From: Salminus brasiliensis
Lineage: Eukaryota > Chordata > Actinopteri > Characiformes > Bryconidae
Reading direction: 5' to 3'
Assembly: GCF_030463535.1 (NCBI RefSeq)
Contig: NC_132892.1
Location: 32,976,932 to 33,040,931 of the forward strand
DNA length: 64,000 nt
Below the pieces are notes generated by a model. That model ran no database searches and was not told the origin of the DNA. It saw only the letters and a program-made list of their open reading frames with translations. A program made the translations under genes and the position numbers. Positions 22,793-57,481 of this stretch are shown one piece after another. Positions within the stretch are counted from its first letter, which is position 1; the number at the start of each line of letters is the position of its first letter.

Positions 22793-23188
22793 TCACTTGA
22801 AGACGCAACAGGAACTCATCCACTTTCTGTACTGCTGCCTGACCTGAAAGTAGATCATATAAGTGGTCAGTGCTACTGGATCAGATGGACAGCGCTGAAA
22901 CTGACCAACATGAACATGAAACCATTTGTTTCTTCTAGGTCACATCTTAATGACCTAGAGTTGCTAATTAATACACCATAAATTAATTAACTGGATAGGA
23001 CTAGAACAACAGACAGTGGCTGACCGCTCGGTTGAGGACACAGTAGACCAGGAAGATGAAGGTGCCCTGCTGGGAGTTGAGGAAGAGGAAGACCATCTCC
23101 AACACCTTACTGCCATCAACGAAGAAACCCAGAATCCAGGGGCAACCGAGGATGGCACTCTGGACCAGGATTTTAAAGACAAGAACTC

Positions 23189-23239
<51 letters not shown>

Positions 23240-23242
23240 AGA

Positions 23243-23296
<54 letters not shown>

Positions 23297-23624
23297 ATAT
23301 AATTGTTTTATATTCATTACGTTTTTTAAACTTTTGTAAAGTGTAGAGATTTTAAGGAAGTTCTCAGATTTGTTAGAAAGTGGCAACAGAATGAATGTGA
23401 GCTGTTTATTACTTTATCTGTTTTATCTGGGAAAGGTCACTGTTTAGTCGTGCCAGAGCAGATCTCAGGGTGAAGATGATGAAGACAAAAATAATCACGT
23501 TAACCTGCAAATGTGGTGAAGGTTTATTGATTAAAGATGTGAAATGAATGCTCCTACTGAAAAATTCTGCCCAGTAACAGGTTTTCGTTATATTTCTATT
23601 TTGTATGTCATGATTTTTAATAAC

Positions 23625-23657
<33 letters not shown>

Positions 23658-24189
23658 CACTTAATCCTAAACTTAGACTGTAGGGTTGATGCTTACTGTA
23701 AGAATAAAACACACAGGACCCAGAAAACTCCACACAAAGTTCCTGTCTGTCTTAATCCAGCATCTGCAAAAAGGAAAACAAAAAACTAAATACTAGAGTA
23801 ATAAACAACACAATATTAAAAACCTTTTGTTTGAAGCTGTCTGGGTGAGCACTAGTTACTTTTATCTTGTACCCATGTGTCCCACGTCTTTCTCAGCTTC
23901 TAGGAGCTAAAAAATTAACAACACACCATCTGACAAAACTAACACCTCAACTCACTGTGGACTGCCGTATCCATCAGGAAACAGTCCAACAGACACGCCC
24001 ACCACAACCAGGGGAATAATGTATCCAATCACGATCAGACATTTCCAGCCGAGAATCTCCTTCTGCTTGGATCTGATCTTTGTGAGGTTCTTCACTGAGA
24101 TGAAGAGCAGCACAGCTTCAATGAACATCCACACAAAAGCAGAGAGGAAGAGGAAGTGCAGAACACCTGCCAGCACTGCACACAACAAC

Positions 24190-24253
<64 letters not shown>

Positions 24254-24265
24254 GAGAGACAGAGA

Positions 24266-24340
<75 letters not shown>

Positions 24341-24341
24341 G

Positions 24342-24413
<72 letters not shown>

Positions 24414-27400
24414 CAGAGAGAGAGAGAGAGAGAGGTTAAACACTGCTGTGAGACACTCTGATCTTCATCCAGACCTGAAGAGCTTAATCAGAATGGAAAA
24501 GTTACCTGATCAGGCTGGATGTACTGTAGGAAGCTCTGTGTGAGGAGGAAGAGGAGGTGAGCCAGCAGCAGACTGATACACAGGTTTATCTGAGAAGTGT
24601 TGTTCACTCTCAGGTTTCGCCGACAAAGGGCAAAGGTCAACAGAGTCAAGCTCAGGAACATCAGCCCCACTGCCACAAGTACAGTGCTGAGCAGGTCCAG
24701 GTGAGGGTCACTCTGCAAATCAACAGGCAGTCCTTTATTTTCTCACTAGTTTTACTAATTGCAGTTAGACAATGACCCGTTGATTCTGATTTACTCTAAA
24801 CAGAAATGATATACAATTAAGATAATAAAAGGGAATTGTGAGAAGTTCTATTGGACTATCAGGACTGAAACTAACTTTAATGAGGCACTGTGGCACCAGT
24901 ATTGAGCACAGCTTCCAAAGAAAATATGCCAGATTTTTCTTTTATAGCAATAAGGTATTTATTTGGATATGGAACATTCAGTGCTTTGAAAGATACTTTA
25001 CTTTTACATATCATCAACTATCTACCTTTTCCTTTAACCCTAAATCTGTTCCTACCTTTAACCTTAATTCTAATCTCAACCCAAATCCTCAATCAAACCC
25101 TAATTTTAATCAAAAACCCAACATGTAAACCTAAACATACCCTTATCCTTCACTTCCTAAACCTTACCTTAGCCTTAATCCCAAACCTTATATCAACCAA
25201 AATCTTATATCAAAATCAAAAACCTAAGCCTAACGCTTACCTTAAGACCAAAACCTATTATAACTTTGACTTTACCCTCAAGCCAAAACCTAAATCCAAC
25301 TCTAATCTAATGTCAAAGCCAAAACCTAAGACTAACGCTTACCTTAAGACCAAAACCTATCCTAACATTATCCTTAATCTCAAGCCAAAACTTAAATCTT
25401 ACTCTAATCCTAATACCAAAGCCAAAACCTGACTGGCACATTCCTTAACACCAAAACCTATCCTAACCGTTCCCTTAACCTCAATTCAAAACCTAAATCT
25501 AACTCTAATCCTAATATCAAAGCCAAAACCTAAGACTAATGTTTTCCTTAAGACCAAAACCTGTCCTAAGATTAACCTTAACCTCAAGTCAAAACCTAAA
25601 TCTTACTCTAATCCTAATACCAAAGCCAAAACCTAAGACTAACACTTTCCTTAAGACCAAAGCCTATCCTAACATTATCCTTAATCTCAAGCCAAAACTT
25701 AAATCTTACCCTAATTCTAATACCAAAGCCAAAACCTAAGACTAGTACTTTCCTTAACACCAAAACCTATTCTAACCATTCCCTTAACCTCAGTTCAAAA
25801 CCTAAATCTAACTCTAATCCTAATATCAAAGCCAAAACCTAAGACTAATGTTTTCCTTAAGACCAAAACCTATCCTAACATTATCCTTAACCTCAAGTCA
25901 AAACCTAAATCTTACTCTAATCCTAATACCAAAGCCAAAACCTAAGACTAACGCTTTCCTTAAGACCAAAACCTATCCTAACATTATCCTTAATCTCAAG
26001 ACAAAACCTAAATCAAAACCAAAAATAAACCTAACCCCAACATTTACTCCTAACCAACCTTCTAAATCAAACATTAATCTCAAACCAAAACCTAAACTCA
26101 AACTTAATCCTTACCCTGACTTTAATCAAAACCTAACCCGAACTTTAACTTAAACCCAACCCTAATCTTAAACCAAAATTTAAACCTAACCCTGACTTTA
26201 AGTTGAACTCACAACCAAAACTTAACCTTAACCTCCTCAAAACATGATCCTAACTCTAATCCTGATCCTAAATTTATGACTGGTCCTAATCCTAACACAT
26301 TTTTGATTAACTGGAACATCAACAGTGTGTCAGGCCTGTATCTGATCTTACAAATGCTCTGTAGACTGAAGTTCTCCATAGACAGAAAGCCTTTCCAGAA
26401 AGCTCCAAAAAGAGGGGACAACTTTTTTTGTGTCAAACATCACCAGAGTGCATTAATACAGAATTCAACACTGAATATTTCATAACAGCTTTGAGCATTT
26501 GTCAGCCAATCAGAGCAAAGATGCAATTTATGCTGCTCTGTGATGATCTGGAAGAATAAAAAAATGTATTTCTGGATACCTTTACTTTCACTCTTTTTGT
26601 TTTGACATCACTTTTAACTCTCAGTCTGGTCTACAGTGTTTTCACTGAGTGATTGATCTTACTGCTTCTCCTGAGGGTGGATTGATCTGCATGATGAGAG
26701 CGAAGGTTGACAGGTGTTCACTGGAGCACACAGTGTGACTGCTGTTGGTCTGGAGAAGGTAACAACCATCTTCAACCCATTCAGTGTTCTTCCAGTACAC
26801 ACAGGAGAGTGTAGCGTTAGGCTCAATTTCCTAAAGAAATGTCAGGAGAGAAAATCTCTGAATGGTTTTCATATGTGATGTGATTCAGAAAAGCACTGAA
26901 AAGTCACCAGGATCAGGGTTTAGAAGCACAAATTTAATAACCTACTTTTACGTTTTTGCCTTTCCAAAGTAAACATTATCGTACTTTTTAAAAAGTGCCA
27001 TAATATGTATAAATCTATATTAAAATATAATCATATTATTATTGTTGTGGTTCAGGCATAAAAATTGAATAAATACAACATGAATAAATAGAAATATACT
27101 GGCATATAAATAAAAAATAAATAAAAATACTGACAAAACATTTTATAAAAGTATGCTATAACACAAAACTGGTCTAACTGAAGATGTATCAGGTTAGTTA
27201 GAAAACTCACTTCAATGTGTTTCATAGTGAAGTTGACCGGTTTGGTGAGCCGTGTGTTGGTGGTTTTGGGCAGTGTGGCCGACACCACAGTGGACATCAT
27301 GGTTTTCACCGTGTTGTTAGTTGTGTTAAAGAGGTTGGGGCTCAGCATGTTACCCATGTTGGCGTAGCTCATGAAGGCCACAGCAGCTGATCCTGAAGCA

Positions 27401-30400
27401 CAGGGGGAAAAAGCTACATCATCTAATGAATGTTGGGTTAGGCTAAAGTGGAATTTGTTGAGCTCAGAGTCCACAAGACTGGAACTAGGGACCACTATCT
27501 AAATCTGTTTCTGCAGTGTTGGAGAAATATGTGCTGGTACCATGTCTTCACTTTTTATCATTCCTGATATTGTTTCAGTAATGACTATAATCAATTCTAG
27601 TATAAAGCAAATTAATCAGATTTATTCATTTCTTGATGTCAAAATTGTTGGTACCCCTCTGTTAATGAAAGAAAAACCCACAATGGTCACAGAAATAACT
27701 TGAATCTTACAAAAGTAATAATACATAAAAAATAAACAAATAAAAGTCAGACATTGCTTTTCAACCATGCTTTAACAGAATTATTTAAAAAAATAAACTA
27801 ATGAAACAGGCCTGGATAGAAATGATGGTACCCTTAACTTAATTTTTTGTTGCACAACCTTTTGAGGCAATCACTGCAATCAAACGATTCCTGTAACTTT
27901 CTGTGAGACTTCTGCACCTCTCAGCAGGTATTTTGGCTTTGAATTTTGGCTTTGGATTTGAAGGGTGCCTTTTCCAGACGGCATGTTTCAGCTCCATCCA
28001 AAGATGCTCAATAGGATTTAGGTCAGGGCTCATAGAAGGCCACTTCAGAATTGTCCAATGTTTTCCTCTTAGCCATTCTTGGGTGTTTTTAACTGTTTTG
28101 GGTCATTGTCATGTTGTAAGACCCATAACCTGTGACTGAGACCAAGCTTTCTGACACTTTGCAGCACATTTCTCTCTTGAATCCCTTGATAGTCTTGGGA
28201 TTTCATTGTATTCTGCACAGATTCAAGACACCCTCCTCCATGTTTCACAGTAAGGACAGTGTTCTTCTCTTGATATGCTTCATTTTTCCATCTGTGAACA
28301 TAGAGCTGATGTGCCTTGGCAAACAGTTCCATTTTTGTCTCATCAGTCCATAGGACTTTCTTCCAGAAGCTTTGGGGCTTGTCAACATGTAGTTTGGTAA
28401 ATTTCAGTCTAGCTTTTTTATGATTTGTTTTCAACAATGGTGTCCGTGGTCTCCCATGAAGTCCACTTTGGCTCAAACAATGACAGATGATGCGATCTCA
28501 CACTGATGTTTCTTGAGCTTGAAGTTCACCTTTAATCTCTTTAGAAGTTTTTCTTTTGTTACCATTCATATTATCCGAGTCTTTGATTTGTCATCAATTT
28601 TCCTCCTGTGGCCATGTCCAGGGAGGTTGGATACAGTCCCATAGATCTTAAATTTCTGAATAATATGTGCAACTGTAGTCACAGGAACATCAAGCTGCTT
28701 GGAGATGGTCTTATAATCTTTACCTTTAACATGCTTGTCTATAATTTTATTTCTAATCTACTGAGACAACTCTTTCCTTCGCTTCCTCTGGTCCATGTTG
28801 AGTGTAGTACACACCATGTCACCAAACAGCACAGTGACTACCTGTAGCCCTATATATAGGCCCACAGACTGATTAAAAGATTGTTGACACCTGTGATGCT
28901 AATTAGTGGACACATCTTAACTTAACATGTCCCTTTGGTCACATTATTTTCTGTGGTACCATCATTTTTGTCCAGGCCTGTTTCATGAGTTTACTTTTTA
29001 AAATAATTCTGTTGAAGCAATGGTTCAAAATCAATGTCGGATTTTCATTTGTTCATTTTCATAGAATTATTTATTATTACTTTTGTCAGATTCAAGTTAT
29101 TTCTGTGACCATTTTGGGTTTTTCTTTTATTAACCGAGGGGTACCAACAATTTTGTCCATGTGTGTATGTCCTGACCTGATCATGCATTGATGGAATGAT
29201 GCCAAAGGTGGACGAATTAAAACATGCAAAGTCTCTTATTATACCATTATTATTCGTTGAAATTTCGATGAGGTCGATTTCCAGCTGAGTGCTGTTCAGG
29301 CTGAGCTGAGGAACTTCTTTCATGGAGGCTTTTGGTCCAACTGCAAAGACTTGAATATCTGAGAGATGTAAACCATAACCTCAAGTCATGAACCATATTA
29401 ATAACATTAAGCTACAGTAGAGCTTTGGATGCTAAATTAATAGGACTGTTTTAAGTATATTGTCACTGTCATACCACAAATGTGATGGTTTTCTTTTTCA
29501 GTTGTTCTTTAATGAACTAAAACAGTTGATCATGATGAATGGACCCATAGAAATGCTACAAAATGACTTGGAAAGAAATAATTTTACACTGACTTCCACT
29601 GAAAGGTTTTTTTTCATGTTCCTCGAAAGCTTGTATTTTTTTAACAGTAAAATTAAATTAGAAACATTTTTCCTTTCACTGCTAAAATGTGACCTTGCTG
29701 TGAGATTTAGGGGTGAAAACATTTATGTTTTTTGTTTTTTTACCTAAGCCATTGCGAGAGATGTTAACTGAGTAGTTGGTTTCTGTTGGCTTCACCAGTG
29801 TAGACACCAGTTTCTCAGTCTTGTTCAGCACTGCATTCCCATAAGACACCAGTTTCTCAGGATTTGTTGTTTCAACTTTAAGGAGCTTCTCCTGGGTGTT
29901 CAGCACCATGTCTAAATACTTTGTTACAACCTGATCAATAATCAGAAATTTACAGTTTAATGATGCATCCAGAACTACACAGACAGACGACTTTGTTTTA
30001 TTTTTAGTTATATTTAATTACTTGTTCTGTTTTATTACAGCACTCACTTCTGGTGGGAGGACCTGAGCAGTGATGTTCTCAATTTGGTTAAACAGATCTG
30101 CTCCACATTGTGAGGTGAAATTGTTCTAAAAGAAGAATTCAGTATGTTTTAAACTAGGTCAGTGTATAAAGGTCAGAGATCAGATTGATCAGATATAATG
30201 TAGAATGAAATTGACACAGACCTGGCATTCTGTCGACTCTGTGATATTCGGAACTGGAAGAGTTATAAATGTAAGAGGATAAAAAAGTATGAATACAGTA
30301 TCATCAGGTGTATTTAGCTCCACTGCAGCAACATAAAAGCCACATAGCATAATACAATTTCTTTGTATCATTAATTTCAATTCCATTTGTACTTTTAATT

Positions 30401-33400
30401 TAAATACATCTATTTTTAATGATTATTCTACTACCATTCTACTAGTACAGTAGAAATAGTAGTAGCAACATTAGGAGTAACAGTAGTAGTTGTGGTAATT
30501 GTAGCAGTAGTAGCAACAGTAGCAGTAGTAATGGTGGTAGAATTCAAATTAGTAGAAAGAATAGTAGTAAAATAGAATAATAGTAGTAACATCAGTACTA
30601 ATACTAATTGCAATTGTGGTAGTTATAGGAGTAGTAGAACTAATAGTAGTATCTTTAGCAGTAGTAGTAGTCTTAGTAGTAGTAGTAGTAGTCGCAATAG
30701 CAAAAGTAGTAGTAGCAGCGGCAGCAGTAGTAGTGGTAGTACTTTCAGTAGGAGCAGCAGTAGTTTTATTATTAGTAGTTGCAATAGTAGAAGTCATAGT
30801 AGTATTATCAGTAGCTTCATTAGTATTATTATTAGTAGTAGTGGTCGTAGTAGTAGTTGCAAAAGTAGTAGGAGAGGTAGGAACTACTGTGAGGAGTGAA
30901 CGTTGTATTGGAAAACATGTGGCACTGTTCAAATTGTGTTAAATCTGAAAAGAGAGATAGACACATATATTTATAATCTAGATTCTTTTTGTGTGTACAT
31001 ATGTGTGCTTTGATTTTAGAATGATTTCTTGCAGAAGTATTAATTAAGTTAAATAACAACTGTGTTAAAAAAAACAAAAAACAAACAAACAATCAAAAAA
31101 ATAACAATAATAATCAATGTGGGCTGTGCAAAGGTTAGCCATTCTAATGAGTCAGTACTTTATAATTTCCCATTGGCAGAAATCACAACTTGCAATTCAG
31201 CTTCAAGTGAAACACTCCATGAACAGGGAGGAACTACAAACAGCTGAAATAAAGACCAGGCAGAGCATCAGTATGTAAAACCTAGTGCCTGATGATATTT
31301 CAGAGGCAGTCTCTGAATTCTTACCAAAAATTATAATGACAGCTTATACAATCTGTACAGAAAGACGACTCAACAATATATATGAACAAGAAACCGTCTG
31401 CAAATTAGAGTGGGGGGGCATTTGCAAGACCTCAAAAAGTTTTTCCTTAAGAAAGTAAAATTCAAGCTCAACTGCATTGTGGTCAGGTGGCTGACATAGC
31501 CATTACAGAACATTATACTTCTTTGTCCTAAAAAAGTCTTTGGCCTGGTTGGTTGGTCTGCACACAACTGAGAAGATACAATCTGGCAGTTTTACCCCAA
31601 CACTAAATTTCCAACAGCTAATTACAAGTATGCTAAAATGTTGAGGTAACGGTGATTCTTTGAAAAACCTACCTAGGATTGTGGTTGGTTGAGTGCTGAT
31701 GGGTGCTGTTGTTGTGGTTGAGACTGGCATGCTGGTATTCACATCTGAAAAGGAAAGAGAACAAAAACATAAAAAAAAAACATTTACCAAAAGTTTTTGT
31801 AATTTCTGGGTCATTCAGCTAATGGGATGTCAGTACCTTCAAATTAAAGGTGAATGTCTGAACTTATCATCATCTAAATTCAACTCAAATATGCTGTTTT
31901 TAACAGCTTACAGAATAGTGCCTTAATCAGAAGAAGCTGCAGTAGTTACATCTAATACAAGACAAACTGATGTAAAAACACACTCAACTCAAATCAGATA
32001 AACACTTAATACATAAATACATCCCTCTGTAAAAGAGACCCTCAAAAACAGAATAACAGTAGAATATAAAAAAGTAGAATATTATAATCTAGCTTATAAA
32101 AACAGTAAGTACCTGCACAGTAAGCTGCATGGCAGAAGCTTGTTTTCACAAACTCATAAACATAATAGTTTCCGGGACACGCTTTGACTCGAATTGGGAT
32201 AGATCTGTAGTAACAGCAGTCACTCCCTGAATTCCCACAGACTCCACGAGTAACTATTCCATCTGTTAGTTGGGGGTGAGAACCATTGAGCCACAGAGAT
32301 ATTTCAGTGCCACATCTGAAACGACTCACACAGCTCTCTGGCATCCGGACACTCATCCCGTTATAGAGCAGTCGGTACCAGCCGCTCCAGTTTAAAGAGC
32401 TGTCACAGTAGGATCCTCCAGTCTCATTAGTGCCTCTCCATGACTGGTTCAGAAAAGTGTAGTTACTGCAGGGATCATAACTGGGAATGTCGAAAACAAC
32501 TGTCAAAACAAAGAAAACAGACAAAAATATTAAATAGTTAACTGTATCAGTTTCAGAATATAAAAGTAAATGCCTCAGTAAAGCCTTTAGTCTGAAATAA
32601 AATATGAAGGGAAGTTTTGAATTGTGGTGGGATGTTTACATACACTCTTTATGAACGTGAGAAGATTGAGTGACAACATACTTTTTTAAAAGAAGAAAAC
32701 AATCATTTAATCAACTTTACATTTTTTAGCTGTTTTGATTTCTGCACATTATACATTTTGTATACATTAGTCATGTGTCTAATTATATATACAGATATTA
32801 CAGATATATGTCCCTACTGACAAGAGGATCTGTTTTATTTCTTCATAAAAGAGTGAAACACAACACTCTTGACTCTGCAGAAAGAAGATTTTAAGAAACT
32901 GTGATGTAAAAATGCAATTAAGCAATAGTTTTTTATATATATATATAAATAAATATCTGGAATAACATGTTTGTGCCAAAATATTGATCTGTTGTGAAGC
33001 TCTGTCTCACATTATGGATGGGGTAAGGAGAACTGGAGCAATTGGAGTCTGCTAATCTGCCTGATTTTGACCAACTAATGAAAAGCCAACCTCCTATGAG
33101 CTGTTTGGTTTGTTTGCAGCTATGTTAACTGTTCTACAGGATTCTAAAGAAAATGTGGAAGATGGCTTTTCTGAATATTTGACTGCTAAAAGATTGCTTG
33201 TTAACCAGGTAGGTTTTAGCAGTCGGGTACTAGCGAGGCAATTATGTCAGCTAGGTCCATAGCGACTAAATCTTATTGTTTAGATTAAAAATCCAATTTT
33301 TGCTCATTTTTGTTTTTTCAGAAGATTAAAATTTTGCACCTTTTTGGTCCCATTAAGACCTCAAGTAGGTACGGATGAATTGCTATGTACAACACTACAC

Positions 33401-43619: not shown

Positions 43620-44535
43620 TCATCTAAACATGCAACAGGAACTCATCCACTTTCTGTACTGCTGCCTGATCTGAAAGTAGATCACATGAGCAGAGAGCAG
43701 GAAGTTAGTTATACACTATATGTCCAAATGTTTGTGGACACCCATTCTAATGAATGTATTCAGCTGCTTTCAGTTGTTGAGACAGGTGTGCAAATGAACA
43801 GATGAGCATGAACCTAATCGGCACCATGCCACAATGCCAGGGTTGGGCTAGAGGGGTATAAAGCCCCCCAGTATTGAGTTGTAGAGCAGTGGAACTGTGT
43901 TTACCATTGGTAGGTCCTGGTAGGTTCTACATTTCACCTGAAAGGGCTGAAAGCTAGAGAGGGATGGAGTGGTGATCACATTTGAAGGATACTTTAATTA
44001 ATCTACCAATATAACTGGATAGGGAAAGATGAAATACTGAATAGATTAGTGAGACTGTAGTTACTGGTCTTTATCAAAATAAGTGAACTGTAGGGATATC
44101 CTACAGAAAATCTGGTCTTTTAGTGTAAATTCAATAGCAAGTGTATCACATTTCGCTCATCTCTTAAAAATGTATTTAATTTATATCATTTACATTTATA
44201 TAATTCTATCCAGCCTACATACAGCCATAGAATAGCGGCAATGATTTTGTCCAAATTTGGATGTCAGAACACAGCCACAATGAACTGCAGTTAGAACTGT
44301 TGTTCAAACAGTTTACCTGATATGCTTAATGTGAGCCAATTTCAGCTTTTATTTATATATTAGTGGCTGACCTCTTGGTTGAGGACACAGTAGACCAGAA
44401 AGATGAAGGTGCCCTGCTGGGAGTTGAGGAAGAGGAAGACCATCTCCAGCACCTTACTGCCATCAATGACGAAACCCAGAATCCAGGGGCAACCGAGGAT
44501 GGCACTCTGAACCAGGGTTTTAAAAACAAGAATTC

Positions 44536-44583: not shown

Positions 44584-45485
44584 ATTAATATATTCTAATA
44601 AAATATAATATATTAATATACATTTGGTTTATATTCATTACATTTTGTAAAGTGTAGAGATTTTAAAGAAGTTCTCAGATTTGTTAGAAAGTGGCAACAG
44701 AATGAATGTGAGCTGTATATTACTTTATCTGTTTTATCTGGGAAAGGTCACTGTTCAGTCGTGCCAGGGCAGATCTCAGGGTGAAGATGACGACGACAAA
44801 GATGATCACATTAATCTGCAAATGTGGTGAAAGTTTATTACAAGGTAAATTCATCTTCTGGAAAAGTCAGAGAACTGCTTGTTAGACATATTTTGCATTG
44901 TTTGGAATTTTTACTGTTTTAATGCAGAAGCATTCTGTGTTTTTTTTTACCCTTTTATTTCATTTTTGTTACATATAACAAAATCTAAAGGTATATACTT
45001 TAATGCAAAAGTATTATTTGATGGTATAACTGATATTCCAATTTTAAATCATATTGTGACAGGAATTATAACTGAAATGTTTAACTCTGAATTCTTATGT
45101 TCATACCTGTTTTAAATGTAACCATTGCTTTCACAAATACAATTAATTGAACATTTTATATATTTGACATAGACACAATTTCAACACATTTTATACCATT
45201 TTTGAAAGGCTTAAACTTCACAGACTAAAATTATTTCAGTGTGTATTATTCCTATCTTAAGGATCCTACTGTTCTTTCTATTTTATAGTAGGGTCAATAC
45301 TTTCAGAATTTACCGTAAGAATAAAACACACAGGACCCAGAAAACTCCACACAAAGTTCCTGTCTGTCTTAATCCAGCATCTGCAAAAAGGAAAACATGA
45401 CCATAAAACTAAATAGAAGAGTAACAAACAGTTCATTTCCCTTTTTATAAATCAGATATTTGGATTAAATATGTGGCTTACCTCT

Positions 45486-45525
<40 letters not shown>

Positions 45526-45912
45526 TTACTTAAAAGTTGACCAAATGAAGTTCCCCTTTTTGGTATGTCATTCAACTATAATAAAGTGTTTCTCAGCTTC
45601 TATGGTTTAACAAATCAACAAACATCTGACAAAACCAACACCTCCTCTGTGAACTCACTGTTCACTGCCGTAACCATCAGGAAACAGTCCAACAGACACG
45701 CCCACCACAACCAGGGGAATAATGTATCCAATCACGATCAGACATTTCCAGCCGAGAATCTCCTTCTGCTTGGATCTAAACTTTGTGAGGTTCTTCACTG
45801 AGATGAAGAGCAGCACAGCTTCAATGAACATCCACACAAAAGCAGAGAGGAAGAGGAAGTGCAGAACACCTGCCAGCACTGCACACAACAACTAGAGAGA
45901 GAGAGAGAGAGC

Positions 45913-45976
<64 letters not shown>

Positions 45977-48900
45977 AAGAGAGAGAGAGAGACAGAGAGA
46001 GAGAGACAGAGAGAGAGAGAGGGACAGAGAGAGAGAGAGAGAGAGGTTAAACACTGCTGTGAGACACTCTGATCTTCATCCAGACCTGAAGAGCTTAATC
46101 AGAATGGAAAAGTTACCTGATCAGGCTGGATGTACTGTAGGAAGCTCTGTGTGAGGAGGAAGAGGAGGTGAGCCAGCAGCAGACTGATACACAGGTTTAT
46201 CCGAGGAGTGTTGTTCACTCTCAGTTTTCGCCGACAAAGGGCAAAGGTCAACAGCGTCAAGCTCAGGAACATCAGCCCCACTGCCACAAGTACAGTGCTG
46301 AGCAGGTCCAGGTGAGAGTCACTCTGCAAATCAACAGGCAGTCCTTTATTTTCTAAAGAAAGCTAACGACCCAACAGGCTGATTTGCTCTAAACAGAATG
46401 TAAACGCAATACATGAAATAATAACATTTGTTTTACATTAATTTTCACTGTGAGAATCACCATGGTTATACTATAGGTGGCAACCATAATAAGCAGATAG
46501 GAGTTAGGAGTCTTACCAAAGGACTCGTAAGGGTGTGCAGTGTTGTTACCCGCTACCCAACACCAACTATTCTGTAGTGCTTTATTGTCACCTTTAACTT
46601 GCAACTTACTAAATACATCATCTAAAAGAGTCATCTAGATTTTACCTTTATCCTAAAAATTTTCAAAATCCCAACCCTAACACTGACCTCAACTTTAGAC
46701 CTTAACCCTAACCTTAAGCTCAACCCAAAAACTAAAGTTTACCTACCTCTAAACTTAAAATTAACTCAAAACCTAAGTCTAATTCCAACTATTAGCCCAA
46801 TTTAAACCTAACTTAATCTTTATCCTCCTCAAAACTTAAATCTAACTTTAATTTTAACCTTAAATCAAAACCTTAAACTTAGCATATCTTTAACCTCCTC
46901 AAAACCTAAACCTAATCCTAACTTTAAGATCATCTCAAAACCTAAATTCTAACCTTACTTTTCACCTCAACTCTAAACTAAGATTACTCTTAACCTTCCC
47001 AAACCCTAAATCTAATCATACTTATAACCTCAATTGAAAACCAAAACCTAACCTTAGCTTATGTGACTTAAATGACTTAAAACCTAAACTGAACCTTAAA
47101 CTCCTCAAAATCTAAGCCTAACCTTTTCATTAACAGGAAAGCATTCCCAGAAAAGTAGGGCTGTTTTGCCCATGATTTGAAAACAAAATATCCAACAAGC
47201 AATCTGACAAACATTAAGTCAAGAGGAATTTCAGAGTGCATTAATACAAAATTCAACACTGAATAATTCACAACAGCTTTATAATTCAGCCAGTCAGAGC
47301 AGATATACTAAAATGTTGCTGCTCTGTGATGATTTGAAAGAATAAATGTAATTTACTTCAGAACTGAAAATCTAGATGTTTCACTTTCACTCTTTCCATC
47401 ACTTTTAGCTCTCAGTCTGGTCTACAGTGTTTTCAGTGTGTGATTGATCTTACTGCTTCTCCTGAGGGTGGATTGATCTGCATGATAAGAGCGAAGGTTG
47501 ACAGGTGTTCACTGGAGCACACAGTGTGACTGCTGTTGGTCTGGAGAAGGTAACAACCATCTTCAACCCATTCAGTGTTCTTCCAGTACACACAGGAGAG
47601 TGTAGCGTTAGGCTCAATTTCCTAAAGAAACATCAGGAGAGAAAATCATGTCTTTAAGGTTATGGAGTTGATGTGAGAGGCAGCTATTAATTAGGAATGT
47701 AATATCATTAAACTCATGTGATTTAAATAGTTATATTACAACATAAATTATATATATACTTATATAATTTATTTAAAAACATATATTTAATATTATATAA
47801 TTTATTAAAATATATATAAAACATACTTTCATGGTTAATTAAAAATATACCACAATAAGCAGAATACACTATATTATAATCAAGTTGAACATGCTATACA
47901 ATAAATAATAGTTAAGGATAATAAACTACCACCTAAATAAAAAGAAAGACTGATTTACTTTGGTGAAGATTGTGTGTGAAGGTGTGTCAGGAATAGAAAC
48001 GGGGTTCACCACCAAAAGACAGCCAAACCCTCCCAGGTAAGTTCAATATCCCACATGCTTTTTATTAATATTCACACCACATAAAAATAGAATAGAAAAA
48101 TAGAAAGGAAAAAAACATACAAAAAGAAAAATAAATGCTTTAAAAGTACTCTAGTCTCACAAGACTTCCCGCAGTACATAAGGTAAGTTTTGCTGACTTG
48201 ACAACAGCCAGAGTTAGTCTACAGCCACAAGAAAGTGTAGACATAACACTTTCCCTCCAAAAGAGGCCCCCTAGGTCTCCCACTCCCCCCTTTTAAATCT
48301 CTAGCCCCGCCCCTAATCTACCTGGGCTCTACCATTACTACAGAGTGGGCATACTCAGAAAATACAAACACACAAACACAAGATTACTGTCGACAGAATA
48401 TATATAGACGTAGATGTAATTTTCTTACATATACATATCATCACTTTAGAATTAATAACTTAACCTTCTCCCCCACAGGTATCCCAGAAGAACATTCACC
48501 ACATAAGAGATAGAGCTGGCTGGACGCAAGTCCCCCAGGAAGTCCTTGAGGAGCAGGTTCAGGTAAGTACACACACACACACACACACACACCTACCTCA
48601 GACAATACCCAGTGTTCATTAAAATGTCTCTAAACAAGCTTGGTGATGGGTCAGGTCTTCTACCTTCATCACAATTCTGATTGCTGTAGCTGCTCTATAC
48701 ACTTTGTAAATTATTTTGGATAAATGGGCCAATAAAAAGGTTATGAATAAATTAAATAATCTTAAAATGACTTGTAATCAAGGTTAAGAACATGTTTGCC
48801 TTCTCCTGTAAAGTCTTATTTTTGGAGATACATGTGTTTTTAGAACAGCAACAATACATAGTAGTAGACATGCATGCATCCATATACAAAAGTAAACATA

Positions 48901-51065
48901 TAGGAACATAAAACTCTACATTATAAAACAAACCTGCTCTGATTAAATATTAAATGTATCAGTTTAGTCAGAAACTCACTTCAATGTGTTTCATAGTGAA
49001 GTTGACCGGTTTGGTGAGCCGTGTGTTGGTGATTTTGGGCAGGGTAGCCGACACCACAGTGGACATCATGGTTTTCACTGTGTTGTTAGTTGTGTTGAAG
49101 AGGTTGGGGCTTAGCATGTTACCCATGTTGGCGTAGCTCATGAAGGCCACAGCAGCCGATCCTGAAGCATGGAGAGAAAAAAAGCAACATCATCTAATGA
49201 ATGTTGGGTTAGGCTAAAGTGGAATGTGTAGAGCTCAGAGTCCACAAGACTGGAACTAGGAACCACTATCTCTATCACTAACTCTGTTTCTACAGTGTTG
49301 GAGAAATAGGTTCTATGTTATCTGGTACTATGACATTGTTTTCTGCAATCCCTGATATTGTCTACACAATATAGTGTAAAGGACTACAATCAATTCCATT
49401 AATTTCCAATGCAAACGCAGTTTAATAAATTAAGCCATTAGAATTAAATTTCAACTGGTTTGATCTGAAATGCCAGAAGATGCCTGGATGTTGGTGCTTT
49501 AAATTATTATTAAAGAAACAATATAGAAACATAGAGAATTTTGTCAAAGAATTAAAACATGCAAAGTCTGTTATGATACCATTATTATTCATTGAAATCT
49601 GGATGAGGTCGATTTCCATCTGAGTGCTGTTCAGGCTGAGCTGAGGAATTTCTTTCATGGAGGCCTTTGGTCCAACTGCAAAGACTTGAATATCTGAGAG
49701 ATGTAAACCATAACCTTACTTTAATGCGTTTCATATAGTCACTGGAGGGCAGTTTATTTTGTACATTGCACATAATTGCATAAATTGTGTCATTTCTAAA
49801 TTATGATGACTAGAGGAATATATAAAGGTATTTACAAGTATTGCATGTCTTTGTAACCCCTTAACACTCTTATTACACAATAAGGTGCATTGTATAACTC
49901 TAGGGGGCATCTGTACAAACTGGTGGGGTTATCTCTGGTAATAGAAGTTTGTGATAACCCACTGGTGGGACATATACTTTTCGGTTGAGTTGGGAAGTTG
50001 GGTATGAGATGGATTGGTGATCATCCAATATTCAGACCTCCCTAACACCGTTGTTGCTGAATGCAATCAATTGCTTACAGCAATGCTCCAAAATCTAATA
50101 AAACGCCTTCTCCAACAAAAGCAAAATAAACTCTTTTAATAGCCTTGATTTCAGAAGACACAATGACTAAGCCAAAAATGTATTCCATATAGGCTATGAG
50201 GTTTTTGTGTAACAGCAGTGTTATGTTTCCTTAACAGTAAAAGTAAAAGAATGTCTAATTAAATATTTATTACAATTTTATCAATTAACTATTTATGTAT
50301 TATCATTATTTTTACCTAAGCCATTTCGGGAGATGCTAACTGAATAGGTGGTTTCTGTTGGCTTCACCAGTGTAGAAACCAGTTTCTCAGTCTTGTTCAA
50401 CACTGCTTTGCCACTAGACACCAGTTTCTCAGGATTTGTTGTTTCAACTTTAAGGAGCTTCTCCTGGGTGTTCAGCACCATGTCTAAATACTTTGTTACA
50501 ACCTGATCAATAATCAGAAAAGTACAGTTTAATGATGCATCCAGAACTACACAGACAGACGACTTTGTTTTATCTTTAGTTACATTTAATTACTTGTTCT
50601 GTTTTATTACATCACTCACTTCTGGTGGGAGGACCTGAGCAGTGATGTTCTCAATTTGGTTAAACAGATCTGCTCCACATTGTGAGGTGAAATTGTTCTA
50701 AAAGAAGAATTCAGTATGTCAGTGAATAAAGGTCAGAGGTCAGATTGATCAGATATAATGTAGAAAGAAGCTGATACAGACCTGGCATTCTGTCGACACT
50801 GTGATATTAGGAGCTGGCGGAGACACGACTATAAAATATGAATAATCAGCACAAATAAAAGAAGGGGTGGAGTTATATAAATAATAGCAGTAGTGGTATT
50901 TATAGTAGTAGTAGAGGTAGCATATGCAGTAATAGTAGTAGTAGTAGTAGTATTCATAGTAGTTTTAAGAGAAGTAGTAGTACTCATAATAGTATTAGTA
51001 CTAGTAGAAGTAGCACTAGGGGTAGTAGTACTTCTATCCCTAATAGTAGTAATAGTAGCAGCAGC

Positions 51066-51096
<31 letters not shown>

Positions 51097-54000
51097 ATGG
51101 TAGTAGTAGTGTACATAGTAGTGGTAGTAGTAGTAGTAGTAGCAGCAGTTGTAGTAGTAGTAGCAGTAGTTGTGGCAGTAGTAGTGTACATAGTAGTAAT
51201 AGTAGTAGCAGCTGTAGTAGTAGTCATAGTAGTAGTTGTAGTAGAAGTAGCAGCAGTAATAGTAGCAGCAATAGTATTCATAGTAGTAGTAGTGGTAGTA
51301 GTAGTAGTAATGGTGGTAGTAGTAGTAGAAATAGCAGTTGTTGTAGCAGTTGTAGTAGTAACTCACCACTGTGAGGCTTAAACATTGTATGAAATATAAT
51401 CATTTTTAAAATGTCAACTTTAACAGGTTAATAATAACTACTAATTATAATGACTAATAATTAATAATAACTTTGTTATTGAAACTCAATGTTAAAAAAA
51501 AAAGTTTAGTAAGTAAAGTTTAGTGTACCTGCTGTTTCAGAAACAGGAGCTGCAGTTGTTACATCTAAAACCAGACAAGCTGATATCATAACGCATTCAC
51601 CGATTATTTATCATCATTCTGTAATAAATAAAAATTTAATTAAATTACCTGCACAGTAAGCTGTATTGCAGAAGCTTGTCTTCACAAACTCATAAACATA
51701 ATAGTTTCCGGGACACGCTTTGACTTGAATTGGGATAGATCTGTGGTAACAGCAATCACTCCCTGAATTCCCACAGACTCCACGAGTAACTATTCCATCT
51801 GATAGTTGGGGGTGAGAACCATTGAGCCACAGAGATACTTCAGTGCCACATCTGGAATGAGTGACGCAGCTCTCTGGCATCCGGACGCTTATCCCATTAT
51901 AGAATAGTCGGTACCAGCCGCTCCAGTTTAAAGAGCTGTCACAGTAGGATCCTCCAGTCTCATTAGTGCCTCTCCACGACTGGTTCAGAAAAGTATAGTT
52001 ACTGCAGGGGTCATAACTGGGAATGTTGAAAACAACTGTCAAAACAAAGAAAAAAGACAAAAATATTAAATAGTTAACTGTATCAGTTTCAGAATATAAA
52101 AGTAAATGCCTCAGTAAAGCCTTTGATCTGAAATAAAATATGAGTGACATTAGTGAGCTCAATAAACAGTTAAAAAGTTCATATGCTTATTATGGACATG
52201 AATATCACATATTCATGTCACATTTTTTTTCCTTTAGAGCCTTGAGGATTAAACAGATTATTATCACTTCAGTGAACCCACTTTACTATGTTGTAGAGTT
52301 CTGTGTCTCACCTTGTGGATTAGGTGAGGAGCACGCTAGGGAAACTGAAGTCTAACCATCTTGAAAAATTAGCTAGCATAGTAACAACTATGTTAACTAT
52401 CTCACAGCATTTTAGGATTATAAGAAAACCATATAGCTAACACACTAGCAAGCCAGGCCCTGCTTGTGGTAGATGACCTGTAAACACAGAGGCACTCATC
52501 AGACTGGTAAGTGATATGCCTCGTTCAACTTATAGTTGATTTAAGTTAGCTGGTTATAAGACCAAGTTATGGATAACAAGACCTAAACTAGACAAACAGC
52601 AGCCTAGTACTTGCCAGGAAATTACGTTCGATAGGTAGTTAGCTACCAGTGTTGCCGATTAGATAAACAATGATTCACATTAGTACGTAGAAATAACTAG
52701 GTAAGCTGATATGAACTAACAAATGTTTATTTGTCATTTTAGTTGATTGTTTAACAAATCTTCAATCATTTTTTGTCTTGTTAGCTAGCTAATTTGCACT
52801 ACTTAAGCCCTGAAGTAAATACTGATGAATAACTATTTAAAACAATACACTGTTTTGTGATATCATAGAGAACACTTTAGTGTATTTCAAATATTATCTG
52901 TTTAAAACAAATAAAAGGATAACAAAAGCATTTTTTGTTGAACATTTGATATCTGATTATGATTATTCAAATATTGGATTACAATATGCTTTTTACATAC
53001 TTGTCAACTGTACAAACAAACTGTTAATATTGGCTCACTTTTAGCAATATCTGTCAAGTTTACATATCTAAGTTACACCAATTAGATTTATGTTGAGCTA
53101 AATGTTACCACACCTGCTAGTTGTCTAAACAAGGTTTTACTAGTTGGGTAAGTTTCAGTTTATTAGTTAACACAACAGAATCGCTTGCTAAGTAAAGTAA
53201 GATCTAATCACCAGCAGGACGTATCTCAAAAAATTTAGCAAATTAAGAAGATTCCCATTTTTTAATTGAGACGACACATTATTTTTTATAGTGCGATCAT
53301 GTCAGGTAGGGTAAGACAACATGGGCAAGAGCAGACTTTACCTGCACAGTATGTCGGCATTGGAAGTGATAAGGCTGGCCTGACGAGTCTGTAGACAAAG
53401 TAGTTTCCTGGGCAGGCTTTAACTTGGACTGGGTTTGATCTTGAGTTTGAAATGCATTGTGCACTTTTTTGATTGTCAACAAAGAATTCGTAGATTTCTC
53501 TGGTGACAATGCCATCCTGGGGTAGTGGATGAGATCCACCAAGGTAAAGTGCTGTGTAACCTCCACATTTTAAATAAGATGCACACAAACCCAATTCAAT
53601 AATCTGAGCATTCTGCCCCTGAAGATAAATCCGATACCAGCTGTTCCATTCAACAAGGGTGTCGTCATGACCAGTGTAGCCACTGTACACTGATCTCCAT
53701 CCATTATCGAGAACACTGTAGCCATTGCAGGGGTCATAAGTGATGTCTGTAGTTACTGTAGAGTGGAGAACAAAGTCATCAGAAACAAACATGCAAAACC
53801 CCCAATAGTACACACCCAAAAAATGACTAAATACGAATTTATAAATGTATTATAATACACCTGCTTAAAGCAGCATTATGCGATAATTGGCATTCTATTA
53901 TTCTACTTTTAACAAGTCAGTGGAAATTTTAAAGCTGATAATTTAAGTGAAAGTGTTGTTTTTAAAAACTACTATTTAAATTTTTTGGCTGAAACTGTAT

Positions 54001-57000
54001 ATTGCAGTGCGAGAAATAAATCCCTAATCCCATTATTATAAATCCTGTCTCTCAGCAATAAAAAGATCCCATCAGAACAGATGCAGGTAAACATAATTAC
54101 AATAAAAAAGGGACTAGAGCTTCTCATTCTGAAGAAAGTAGATAAGATATTGTGAGCTAGTCTGAAGAGCAAAGCTCTGTTCCAGCCACTTCCACCACTT
54201 TCCTGGTGCAGTAAAGTGTAGACACAGATGGAATTTGGCCTCCGGCTGCACCGCGGCATCCAGGAATTAAGAGAGTTAAGTGTCTTGCTCAAATGTCCAA
54301 CAATAGCAGCTAAGCTTGGGTATCAACCCCACAACCCTGTCATCAATAGCCTAGTGCTCTAACCACTGAGCCACCACTGGCCCCACTGAGCCACCACTGC
54401 CCCCAAATACTTTTGTCCATATAATGTAGTTTAAACTGACACTAGTCAAGGAAAGTGGTGTAGTTTGGTATATTTAAGTTGTGTGGTGTGAATATATTGA
54501 TAACCCAGTTATATCCTGTTATCAGTGACTATAGGTTCTCAAACAGGACACTAATTAAGTGATTGTCACAACATTGTGCATCTACATTTTTGCTGCTTTA
54601 AATAAATTAAATCTGGCAGATGTTTTAAATGTACCAATAGAAATTAATCAAAATAATGTGGAATGAAATCTGGATAATGAATATATATATATATTTATTT
54701 TTATATAGGTTTTTGCATGACAGTGATGATATACCTTGCATGGAGCAATTCAATGACAATTCTGCATTCTACAGATATTGATATTATGTTATATAGTCAT
54801 CCATAAACCTACATTACCTCCTGTTGAAATTGTACAGCATTGTAACATCTACCATTCTTACCTCATACATTGCTCACAGCTGCTCACTTCCATTCTTAAA
54901 TTTCTATTACCGTTCCATTTTCTATTTTTAGATTTATTAACAATTTTATGTTCTATATTTCTTCTAATACATTTTGATGTGATATGTTATTTTTTGTTTT
55001 TAATCTTAATTTTTTTGTTATTTATATATTTCTCCTTTTTGTAAGGTGTATGCCTGTATATTTGCTTACTTGATGATGAAGTGCTGTTCACCATTATTGG
55101 AGCAATGACTGGAGTGATGGAACTCACATCTGAGTAAAGGACATATTATTCTTAATAAAACAATCACAAAATCCTATAAAAATCATTTGAAATAATTTTA
55201 AGACCATAAGAGTACCTGCACAGTAAGCTGCATTGCAGACGTTTGGCCTGACAAACTCATAGACAGAATAGTTTCCTGGGCACGCTTTTACTCGAATTGG
55301 CAGAGACCTTGAACAACAGTCCTTTCCATAACTACCACAGGTCTGGCGGGTGACAATTCCATCTGCTATCTGAGGATGTGAACCATTAAACCAAAATGCG
55401 ACATTAGTGCCACATCTACCACTATTAATGCAGCTCTCTGGCATCCGGATGTTCATCCCATAATACAGCAGCCGGTACCAGCCGTTCCAGTTGAACTTGC
55501 TGTCACAGATCCACAATCGAGTAGCATTAGTGGCTCTCCAGGGTTGGTCTAGAACAGTGTAGCTGTTGCAGGGATCTTCAACAGTAGCTGTTGTTGAAAC
55601 CAATATGATATTTATCAATGGTGAGGAAGACCATTTTCCACAGAGGTGTTTCAACACTGAGCTGCACAAGATCATTACTACTTAACCATAGCACATTTTT
55701 ATAGAGTAAAAACCATTACACAATAATCTTTCTACTGATTAAAAAGCTTGTTTCATTTATTTAAAACACATAAATTACAGATAAACAACATAATTATTAA
55801 TAAACAACATATCATATTCACATCAACAAAATATTAAAGCACAACATCTTATAAGTTAAATTGTTGTGAAAGCTTTTTGGGTGACTTTAAACAGTACTTA
55901 CTTGCAGCACTGCTATTTGTTATTGAAATTAGTATGATGACAGGGACCCCTGGTGGAAAGATAAAGGAATCACTGTCTGCTCACTGTAACATTGATATAA
56001 CCTGTCTTACCTGTCAGGCTGATTACAGATGCTGTGTTTGTTTAGTTAAAGCTTGATTTGTATAGATTGTGAATGCATTTGTACCCTAATGAGATACTTC
56101 CCCTTAATTTTACTATTGATATTTCAGCTATGGCAATCTAATAAATGCAAAGTACTGCTCAGTCTTTATTAGTTGTTTAATCATTTATTTCAATGCAACA
56201 ATCATGTGTAACAATTAAATGAAGGTGCTGTATAAATTCATCAGTATTTATGTGAATCAAAAAACAAATTCAGGAAAAAAATAAAAATGTGATGTGGGGT
56301 CAAATATTAATATATATATATATATGTTTATAAAATATATATTTTTAGTTTTTTATCGTGGGGGAACACACCTACCTACATGCACAAATATATAAAAAGC
56401 AAAATAACATTTTATGTAATTTTTTTAATTTAATTGCATCCACAAAAATACACAGTTATAAATATTTCTTAACATGGAAAAAGTTTAATTAGGTTTAGAG
56501 TGAAATATCATTCTTACAGCTGTATTTTTATTATTTAATATTTGAGCTCAGTTCAGTCATTCTGTAAGCGATCAAACTTAGCATTTAAGTAACACGAGCA
56601 AGGATAAACAACTCCCATCCTGGAGGGCCAGTCTCCAGCAAGTTTGGTAGTTGCCCCAGTCAAACACACCTGATTCAACTCATTACCAGGCAAAGTGAGT
56701 AAGTATGAGTAGGACAACTACCAAATCTTTCAGGAGATCAGCCCTCCAGGACTGAAGTTTTGCACCCCTGATTTAGTGCCTAAATGAATAAACATTAAAA
56801 TGAATAACTCAAAACATTACTTTCATGCTTGTTTTGAAATTTTGTATGCTTGCTTAAGTTGATATTTTTTCTGTTTTTGTGTTTTTAGTAGTTAACCAAC
56901 AGCTTTCTCTACTTCATGATATAACATTCACACAAGCCAACATCCGTAAGTGGAAAACAACGCTATTCAAGGATTGACTTTTAGTTTTTTTTTATACTGA

Positions 57001-57481
57001 ATACAGTCATTATTCAACTTTATTTGTGACCCTGCCTCTCCATCTGCTTTTCCTCTGTTTTATTTGACTTACACTTTGACTTGATGCAAATGTCCATCCT
57101 ACTGTTTTGTCTGCCATCCTGACTGAGCAAATCACCAAATTAGGCTAATTGCCAAATAAACAAACACACATACTAATGTTTAGTGTTGTGAGCATACTCA
57201 CATTGTTAATGAGTCTTAATGTCAAAAACAGAAAAAAATAGATTAAAATGACCTGTTGATCTATCCCCAAATCTCAATAAAACACAATGAATATGGCTTT
57301 TGAAATAAATACACAACCAAAAAATCTTACTATTAAGAGAAGTATGAACAATAGAGACAGCTAAACTAACTTAGATCTTTACTCAAACATCTGAAATCTT
57401 TATACTTTGACTGTATTTTCATTCTAAGCTGAAATGAAATGAATACTCACATGGCAAAAGAATAATCATATTTCTGTACAT
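43620..57481 (-). CDS. Adhesion GPCR with three D8C domains, gene 2 (ADGRE-like)
   Basis: This is a paralogue of gene 1 with the same exon sizes and phases. Signal: 57451-57481 and 55902-55949 (MYRNMIILLP/WVPVIILISI); 5' UTR acceptor at 57544-57545. D8C-1 55216-55587; linker 55070-55129; D8C-2 53342-53755; D8C-3 51649-52035; linker 51529-51564; Thr-rich stalk from 51361 (or 51368) down, 3' end unresolved. GAIN: 50782-50828, 50620-50697, 50316-50502, 49580-49693, 48980-49161. GPS 47454-47621 (same HL/S cleavage motif). 7TM: 46117-46323, 45659-45891, 45314-45380, 44724-44815, 44372-44534 (ending LNQE), 43620-43670 (IRQQYRKW tail). No stop is seen in any resolved exon. D8C-2 again lacks four cysteines. 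The linker before the stalk differs from the one used by gene 1. The 7TM half is nearly identical to gene 1, while D8C-2 is clearly more diverged. Confidence 0.85.
43719..43912 (+). repeat. TACACTATATG-ended interspersed repeat
   Basis: It starts tacactatatgtccaaatgt and contains gctagaggggtataaagccc. It is related to the 5478 family by its shared end and GGGGGGCTTTATA-type motif, and lies in the last intron of gene 2. Confidence 0.65.
44538..44578. repeat. (GA)n microsatellite at the gene 2 TM6-7 acceptor
   Basis: The (CT)n run on the gene strand leads into ctgtag|AATTCTTG at 44534. It is orthologous in position to 23196-23292 of gene 1 but shorter. Confidence 0.88.
45488..45523. repeat. 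(ATA)n microsatellite in a gene 2 intron
   Basis: A run of ATA units lies between the TM3-4 and ECL2 exons. Confidence 0.85.
45894..46045. repeat. (GA)n/GACA compound microsatellite at the gene 2 TM3-4 acceptor
   Basis: This is the same position and interruption pattern (gacaga, gggaca) as 24191-24434 of gene 1. On the gene strand it abuts the acceptor ctctag at 45892-45893. Confidence 0.92.
46660..47125 (+). repeat. CCTAA-like degenerate array in the GPS/TM1 intron, gene 2
   Basis: Units such as ccctaaccttaagctcaac and cctaaatctaactttaattt fill this part of the intron. It is the counterpart of the 1.25-kb array in gene 1, here about 0.47 kb. Confidence 0.75.
47980..48600. repeat. Unclassified insertion in a gene 2 intron
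   Basis: The intron between exons 48980-49161 and 47454-47621 is 1,358 bp, against 380 bp in gene 1. The extra sequence includes 47980-48600, a GC-richer block starting tgtcaggaatagaaacgggg, a ctcccactccccccttttaa stretch, and a (CA)n run at 48568-48592. I see no coding signal or clear inverted ends. Confidence 0.4.
49985..50185 (-). repeat. Degraded copy of the 5478-type repeat
   Basis: gttgggaagttgggtatgag, gtgatcatccaatattcaga and ccttctccaacaaaagcaaa follow the same order as the reverse copy at 7986-8435, with many substitutions. It is intronic in gene 2 and absent from the matching gene 1 intron. Confidence 0.6.
50885..51361 (-). repeat. AGT/ACT trinucleotide tract encoding the gene 2 Thr-rich stalk
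   Basis: The gene strand is almost pure (ACT/ACA/GCT)n for about 470 bp. From the acceptor at 51362-51363 the frame is Thr/Ala-rich (VTTTTATTTAISTT, up to about 150 residues). From the adjacent acceptor at 51369-51370 it is Tyr-rich (VVSYYYNCYNNC) and stays open for about 109 residues. The Thr frame is the plausible one because it matches gene 1 and a mucin-like stalk. Confidence 0.65.
54200..54430 (+). repeat. SINE- or MITE-like interspersed repeat
   Basis: It has the block agtgtcttgctcaaatgtcc, a gctctaaccactgagccacc stretch partly duplicated at 54355-54400, and ends in aatacttttgtccatataat. Similar gctctgaccgctgagccgcc occurs at 34783-34802. It is intronic in gene 2. Confidence 0.6.

Follow-up and report, generated by a model that had tools for sequence, protein, structure and literature searches.

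Predicted adhesion G protein-coupled receptors with uromodulin-type D8C heads in a tandem gene cluster of Salminus brasiliensis

Does a uromodulin-type D8C head sit on an adhesion G protein-coupled receptor (GPCR) in Salminus brasiliensis, a characiform of the clade Otophysi, or do two kinds of gene lie side by side there? The question is raised by 64,000 nucleotides of contig NC_132892.1 (C15:32976932-33040931; hereafter the window), in which a first-pass annotation had read two tandem chimeric receptors, gene 1 and gene 2. This study found that both are very probably cell-surface adhesion GPCRs of the fish ADGRE (EMR-like) group, with a D8C head on a chassis of GAIN domain, GPS and seven-transmembrane (7TM) domain; this judgement concerns architecture and chassis, not role.

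The gene models were built by hand from blocks conserved between copies. A linker exon between D8C-1 and D8C-2 was added from the database protein P0036; it was found in each gene, and three copies have a counterpart. Gene 1 (22793-38601, minus strand) has 19 predicted exons and encodes 988 amino acids, and gene 2 (43620-57481, minus strand) has 19 predicted exons and encodes 973. Both predicted genes have GT/AG introns throughout, compatible phases and zero internal stops, and all exons from the second signal-peptide exon (SP2) through the stalk are of phase 1-1. Both share one layout: a signal peptide leads into three D8C domains and short linkers, and GAIN, the GPS (HL|S) and seven helices complete the protein. 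The claim that two complete genes splice in frame from signal peptide to 7TM was thus borne out, and its end coordinates were exact: the stop codon of gene 1 ends at position 22793, and the ATG of gene 2 begins at 57481. The two proteins are identical at 868 of 973 aligned residues. Among S. brasiliensis database proteins, gene 2 matches P0001 (97-99% identity over long stretches) and gene 1 matches P0036 (98.5% identity over 480 columns).

The threonine stalk of the first-pass annotation survived in part. The reliable stalk is one short exon; a long ACT-repeat Thr exon is uncertain in gene 1, where it would be optional, has a weak donor and was left out of the 988-residue model. In gene 2, the ACT repeat was dropped as coding sequence, with a stop upstream and no phase-1 acceptor seen. 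ACT-repeat microsatellites lie in the stalk region of three copies (30490-30936, 50832-51378 and 58455-58930), either as a variable stalk or as an intronic repeat; the Thr frame is open in genes 1 and 2. By our own criterion, a Thr-rich tract occurs in two of the 120 listed relatives described below, one of them P0072, which has one D8C and a 7TM half.

Pfam was run on the models preceding the linker exon (968 amino acids for gene 1 and 953 for gene 2). Each protein gave three stretches of D8C_UMOD (E 1.6e-76 in gene 1 and 6.3e-76 in gene 2), as well as GPS (PF01825; 1.6e-10 and 1.7e-10) and 7tm_2 (5.5e-42 and 1.3e-42), in agreement with the three D8C domains, GPS and 7TM first read there; GAIN came just below the cut-off. 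The ZP module (PF00100) was unmatched in either protein, and EGF-like repeats had zero Pfam matches in either. The C-terminal half of both proteins is a 7TM domain of class B type, as in adhesion GPCRs (class B2), not a secreted or glycosylphosphatidylinositol (GPI)-anchored end. In a PDB sequence search with gene 1, the head matched GP2 (7p6r, E 1.7e-30) and uromodulin (UMOD, E 1.2e-28), and the top 7TM match was ADGRE1 (9uco, E 4e-57), followed by ADGRL3 (3e-56) and ADGRE5. With the D8C-3 exon alone, GP2 and uromodulin were the sole matches at a threshold of E 0.001. At the canonical GPS, all 40 aligned relatives share HL-S-T-F and L-I-M without variation; a motif of HL[ST]-FA type was found in 107 of the 120 matches listed (of 955) for the GAIN-7TM half. 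By best PDB sequence match, the predicted receptors are ADGRE-like, with ADGRL3 close behind; we file them as ADGRE-like only, because the EGF repeats of the ADGRE subfamily are unmatched in them. These results support the chimera as an architecture, the ADGRE-like character of its 7TM half and the presence of the cleavage motif.

Structures were predicted for two relatives, Pygocentrus P0012 (alignment of 40) and Hoplias P0113 (alignment of 52). In P0012, two D8C domains folded at a pLDDT of 75-94 per ten-residue block, and the predicted D8C part retrieved GP2 (7p6r) first in Foldseek (TMt 0.82). The whole-protein fold had a mean pLDDT of 60.8; only its D8C part was used, because GAIN and 7TM came out poorly. 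The GAIN-7TM fold of P0113 reached a mean pLDDT of 86.3. Its predicted GAIN domain consists of helices followed by strands, mostly with pLDDT >90, and partially matches the GAIN chains of CD97, BAI3 and latrophilin. Inactive CD97 (8ikj) ranked first by E-value for this fold and ADGRE1 (9uco) second (TMt 0.84).

The disulfide pattern of the D8C domains was also compared with that of GP2, whose domain truly has ten cysteines, paired C1-C8, C2-C9, C3-C6, C4-C10 and C5-C7 (PMC8930769). All ten cysteines of the GP2/UMOD D10C fold are present in D8C-1 and D8C-3. D8C-2 has six, and the missing ones are exactly C2, C9, C5 and C7, two complete pairs. The 120 whole-protein relatives together with genes 1 and 2 yielded 466 domains, of which the 426 of at least 100 amino acids were analysed; these are related domains, not independent of one another. 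For C2-C9, both cysteines were kept in 224, both lost in 163 and one lost in 39; the corresponding counts were 282, 135 and 9 for C5-C7, 395, 17 and 14 for C3-C6, 407, 7 and 12 for C4-C10, and 411, 0 and 15 for C1-C8. Disulfide partners are lost together, which supports the GP2 fold for the fish D8C domains.

The whole-protein search gave 571 matches, 120 of which are listed, with domains assigned by our own hidden Markov models (HMMs). The 7TM half was recognised in 74 of those listed and not in the other 46; at least one D8C accompanies it in 69. The combination of D8C and 7TM is thus predicted widely among related freshwater fishes, zebrafish adgre15 included. The named species with D8C and 7TM among these matches, about 30, are by our reading cypriniforms and characiforms. 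This is compatible with the fish-specific distribution first suggested, as far as the 120 of 571 matches listed extend. Pygocentrus P0012 can be aligned with 0-1 gaps at each junction, starting at D8C-2/D8C-3 and ending at the tail.

Within fish, the zebrafish EMR-like genes (emrl1-14) and adgre15, and cypriniform and characiform entries named 'ADGRE3-like', share the GAIN-GPS-7TM half, and many of them have D8C. Their D8C number differs from that of genes 1 and 2; for example, zebrafish adgre15 (P0057) has two. A 2015 survey, in the part consulted, places at least 14 zebrafish EMR-like genes in a Group II expansion that is separate from the Cd97 clade, and the domain list in its Figure 2 legend does not include D8C (PMC4335454). 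In the section consulted of a zebrafish feeding trial, adgre15 is among the down-regulated genes (PMC10235609). Neither D8C nor uromodulin is mentioned in the review PMC13197933, as far as consulted. The literature searched, which lacked most subscription papers, yielded no account of an adhesion GPCR with D8C. The D8C-GPCR design is thus already in databases as automatic annotation (zebrafish adgre15 and the E3-like entries) and undescribed in the literature searched. Mammalian ADGRE1-5 (EMR/CD97) resemble genes 1 and 2 in the layout of GPS and tethered agonist, whereas ADGRE2, E4 and E5 have EGF-like domains where genes 1 and 2 have D8C, according to the part of PMC13197933 consulted. Uromodulin, GP2 and OIT3 share the D8C (D10C) domain; unlike them, genes 1 and 2 have no ZP match, no beta-hairpin, and a 7TM half in place of a secreted or GPI-anchored end.

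D8C proved to be one among several heads on this receptor half, a point invisible in the window itself. Heads of the 120 listed matches to the GAIN-7TM half were entered by hand from the domain table: D8C in 59, V-set+D8C in four, FN2 in four, V-set in four, EGF in three (Larimichthys, Cebidichthys and Channa), SRCR in one, CysR/ricin-like in one, another type in one and none recognised in 43. Several of these rows are isoforms; three of the four V-set rows come from Carassius gibelio, and a single locus accounts for two V-set+D8C rows. When Pfam was rerun on ten relatives, the heads were confirmed; in P0154, CysR passes the cut-off and ricin falls below it. In the FN2-, V-set-, SRCR- and CysR-headed fish receptors, the GAIN-7TM half is 56-62% identical to that of gene 2 and the head differs; one FN2-headed relative is a Salminus protein (P0133). 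The head looks replaceable, since the same receptor half carries FN2, V-set Ig, SRCR or mannose-receptor-type domains elsewhere. A FastTree tree of 138 rows (four of 142 dropped for short overlap) was rooted on the EGF type; in it, rows with SRCR, CysR or V-set heads fall among D8C rows. The D8C label does not form one clade: it requires 27 changes, at least 17 of them forced by starred branches, against a mean of 45 for shuffled labels. The V-set heads of cyprinid receptors resemble a V-set exon of the window (16476-16847; up to 39% identity, E 2e-13). That exon lies on the plus strand within 16476-17650 (Pfam V-set 6.2e-13), is followed by open reading frames (ORFs) that look stalk-like and transmembrane-like by eye, and appears to belong to a CD300/pIgR-like gene.

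Several observations weigh against this reading of the genes and their heads. Pfam GAIN is under the curated cut-off in both proteins (E 3.4e-5 in gene 1 and 9.3e-6 in gene 2), and 8ikj superposes poorly overall on the P0113 GAIN-7TM fold (TM 0.41-0.42, root-mean-square deviation 15.4). The splice junctions, protein and cleavage of both genes are predictions, and the Salminus entries differ from our models: P0036 is a fragment in which the gene 1 head is mostly missing, and in P0001 exons of copy 3, a further partial copy, are joined to gene 2. The other seven of the eight relatives compared junction by junction have gaps at some junctions. Most relatives are automatic gene models, with 43 of the 120 listed without a recognised head and at least one (P0036) mis-modelled; the SRCR and CysR heads are known from a single model each, and the Astyanax FN2 model probably merges two genes. 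Positively labelled heads were counted separately, because the 'no head' labels are unreliable. Over these 94 of the 138 rows (43 no-head rows and one 'other' excluded), six changes were needed, where the floor for six labels is five; the tree therefore shows different heads and few repeated swaps.

The cluster was mapped by tblastn over 20 flanking stretches beside the window on C15. A third copy, outside the window at 33.052-33.068 Mb, has counterparts of all 19 exons; it is open for 975 codons from SP2 to stop with no internal stop, and its first signal-peptide exon (SP1) was placed by similarity. Within the window, copy 3 (Table 1) gave no GAIN or 7TM match before gene 2. Where it loses the receptor half, an ORF (57923-58412) resembles the end of a long interspersed nuclear element (LINE) reverse transcriptase by eye, with Pfam blank, and a repeat lies inside this LINE-like region at 58130-58412. 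Retrotransposition may have cut away the receptor half of copy 3. The cluster also holds a receptor whose GAIN/GPS part is duplicated and which has no D8C match nearby, a unit with a single D8C, and additional receptor units, of which one lies close to a weak FN2 match. On the plus strand (C15 33097514-33107743), ten very similar D8C exons, open where read, follow one another at 1.0-1.2 kb steps upstream of GAIN, GPS and 7TM exons on that strand; this row is perhaps one ten-D8C receptor. Genome-wide (1.07 Gb), at least 94 D8C exon matches were counted (108 candidates scored), 91 of them on C3, C15 and C26.

Selection was gauged from Nei-Gojobori counts of nonsynonymous and synonymous change (dN/dS), to which no significance is attached. 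Without SP1, dN/dS was 0.40 for genes 1 and 2 (962 codons; 0.41 with SP1), 0.54 for gene 1 and the outside copy, the youngest pair (975 codons), and 0.41 for gene 2 and the outside copy (962 codons). GAIN+GPS was the most constrained part in the three comparisons (0.19, 0.25 and 0.14, respectively). The most divergent part between genes 1 and 2 was D8C-2 (dN 0.165), and the dN/dS of D8C-1 reached 0.83 between gene 1 and the outside copy, on few changes.

Mobile and repetitive sequences also occur in the window. Pieces of Tc1/Sleeping Beauty-type transposase lie at 7228-7719, 11781-12305, 12535-12828, 21355-22283, 28072-28497 and 39483-40416, with DDE_3/HTH matches in those scanned (all but 12535-12828 and 39483-39672), weak for 28072-28497. 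A long minisatellite (1828-3736) has open frames on both strands, with QPTQTFSNTN-type repeats.

Table 1. Predicted exons of gene 1 and gene 2, and the partial copy 3, in window coordinates
Feature	Position	Strand	Remark
Gene 1 SP1, ATG and first half of signal peptide	38565..38601	-	gene 2 counterpart
Gene 1 SP2, remaining signal peptide	37186..37233	-	shared by three copies
Gene 1 D8C-1, 10 Cys, phase 1-1	36465..36836	-	
Gene 1 linker, phase 1-1	36320..36379	-	part of peptide present in P0036
Gene 1 D8C-2, 6 Cys, phase 1-1	33667..34083	-	
Gene 1 D8C-3, 10 Cys, GP2-N65-type sequon, phase 1-1	32113..32499	-	
Gene 1 short Thr/Ser stalk, phase 1-1	31673..31744	-	
Gene 1 possible long Thr exon, ACT repeats, optional	30599..30886	-	weak donor
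Gene 1 GAIN 1	30222..30253	-	
Gene 1 GAIN 2	30048..30125	-	
Gene 1 GAIN 3	29744..29930	-	
Gene 1 GAIN 4	29245..29358	-	
Gene 1 GAIN 5	27211..27392	-	
Gene 1 GPS, cleavage motif HL|STFALIMQ	26663..26830	-	
Gene 1 TM1-2	24506..24712	-	
Gene 1 TM3-4	23956..24188	-	
Gene 1 TM5a	23697..23763	-	
Gene 1 TM5b	23413..23504	-	
Gene 1 TM6-7	23025..23187	-	
Gene 1 last exon, short cytoplasmic tail and stop	22793..22843	-	
Gene 2 SP1, ATG and first half of signal peptide	57451..57481	-	
Gene 2 SP2	55902..55949	-	
Gene 2 D8C-1, 10 Cys	55216..55587	-	
Gene 2 linker	55070..55129	-	
Gene 2 D8C-2, 6 Cys	53342..53755	-	
Gene 2 D8C-3, 10 Cys, GP2-N65-type sequon	51649..52035	-	
Gene 2 short stalk	51529..51564	-	gapless alignment to Pygocentrus P0012
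Gene 2 GAIN 1	50782..50813	-	
Gene 2 GAIN 2	50620..50697	-	
Gene 2 GAIN 3	50316..50502	-	
Gene 2 GAIN 4	49580..49693	-	
Gene 2 GAIN 5	48980..49161	-	
Gene 2 GPS	47454..47621	-	
Gene 2 TM1-2	46117..46323	-	
Gene 2 TM3-4	45659..45891	-	
Gene 2 TM5a	45314..45380	-	
Gene 2 TM5b	44724..44815	-	
Gene 2 TM6-7	44372..44534	-	
Gene 2 last exon and stop	43620..43670	-	
Copy 3, incomplete (5' part with D8C and stalk only)	58455..64000	-	in-frame stop in D8C-1

Two other accounts of the locus concern whether it encodes working chimeric receptors. Separate transcription units, one for a secreted D8C protein and, downstream of it, one for a short GPCR, joined only by the model, would fit the 46 listed relatives that have D8C without a 7TM half, and the D8C-only copy 3. 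Three of the four mapped D8C trios (genes 1 and 2 and the outside copy, not copy 3), however, have GAIN-7TM exons immediately 3' of them on the same strand, 69 listed relatives are modelled as a single protein, and no signal-peptide exon was noticed between D8C and GAIN by eye, without a systematic search; we regard this account as very improbable. That the copies are decaying duplicates without function is hardly credible: the stop and missing receptor half of copy 3 and the dN/dS of the youngest pair would suit decay, but genes 1 and 2, like the outside copy, have retained open frames, and dN/dS stays at or below 0.54 overall and at 0.14-0.25 in GAIN+GPS.

What the head binds is a further matter. 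It might be bait for bacterial fimbrial lectins, offering a GP2-type high-mannose glycan so that bacterial pull-off would trigger signaling. FimH binds uromodulin at N275, and N65 has the corresponding role in GP2. In the consulted part of PMC8930769, altering GP2 N65 impairs FimH binding, and a beta-hairpin before D10C is a feature of the UMOD/GP2 decoy module. The bacterial-decoy idea of the first-pass annotation is weakened in its uromodulin form: a UMOD-type FimH site was rejected, as an N275-type sequon occurs in 0 of 426 domains. The GP2 form retains an N65-type sequon (N-Y-T) in D8C-3 of both genes, absent from D8C-1 and D8C-2. Ten-cysteine domains carry this sequon in 79 of 101 cases when they come from 7TM proteins, counting genes 1 and 2, versus 45 of 95 when they come from proteins without 7TM (Fisher p 8e-6); for domains with fewer cysteines the counts are 19 of 58 versus 39 of 172. 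The excess is smaller once similar domains are merged: 66 of 83 versus 37 of 72 (p 0.0003) after clustering at 90% identity, 43 of 57 versus 20 of 40 (p 0.017) at 80%, and 11 of 11 versus 8 of 13 (p 0.04) at 70%. An N232-type sequon shows the opposite trend (22 of 101 versus 48 of 95), so the N65-type excess is no clear functional sign; N-Y-T may persist for structural reasons alone. The disulfide-bonded beta-hairpin is also absent, with no cysteine from the signal peptide to D8C-1 nor between modules. For these reasons the lectin bait is not favored, and we consider it unlikely. The head could instead bind a host protein or matrix glycan and act in adhesion or migration, by analogy with the EGF domains of ADGRE5, which bind CD55 and dermatan sulfate; this is a real possibility, somewhat short of an even chance. 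The ligands listed for ADGRE5 in the consulted part of PMC13197933 (CD55, dermatan sulfate and integrins) are host molecules. ADGRE1 and ADGRE5 are among the closest 7TM relatives, yet such support is not specific to D8C. SRCR, CysR and V-set heads occur in pathogen receptors too.

In sum, the D8C-headed adhesion GPCR remains the preferred reading of genes 1 and 2. In the proposed mechanism, the GAIN domain would cut itself at HL|S and the D8C-bearing fragment would stay attached noncovalently; a D8C ligand that pulls or releases this fragment would free the tethered agonist STFALIMQ and switch on the 7TM half. The D8C block may be one of several interchangeable ligand-binding heads; shuffling of phase 1-1 exons would have added and replaced such heads, and tandem duplication would have multiplied them. 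The role is most likely that of an immune- or barrier-cell receptor reading glycoproteins, host or microbial. A bolder proposal, which we hold to be quite unlikely in full, is that otophysans have a tandem-amplifying adhesion GPCR family, a GPCR counterpart of the fish innate receptor expansions, in which one self-cleaving chassis would carry exchangeable heads (D8C, FN2, CD300-like V-set, SRCR and mannose-receptor-type) and D8C heads, perhaps up to ten, would sense microbes or their lectins via glycans and fire the tethered agonist.

The label 'ADGRE3-like' on fish entries misleads, as the outer half of these proteins is not EGF. Adhesion GPCR heads are thought to determine which ligand pulls the tethered agonist, and the D8C domain has known structures and, in GP2 and UMOD, a demonstrated bacterial partner. 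One chassis with different natural heads would thus be a ready system for asking whether head identity alone sets the ligand.

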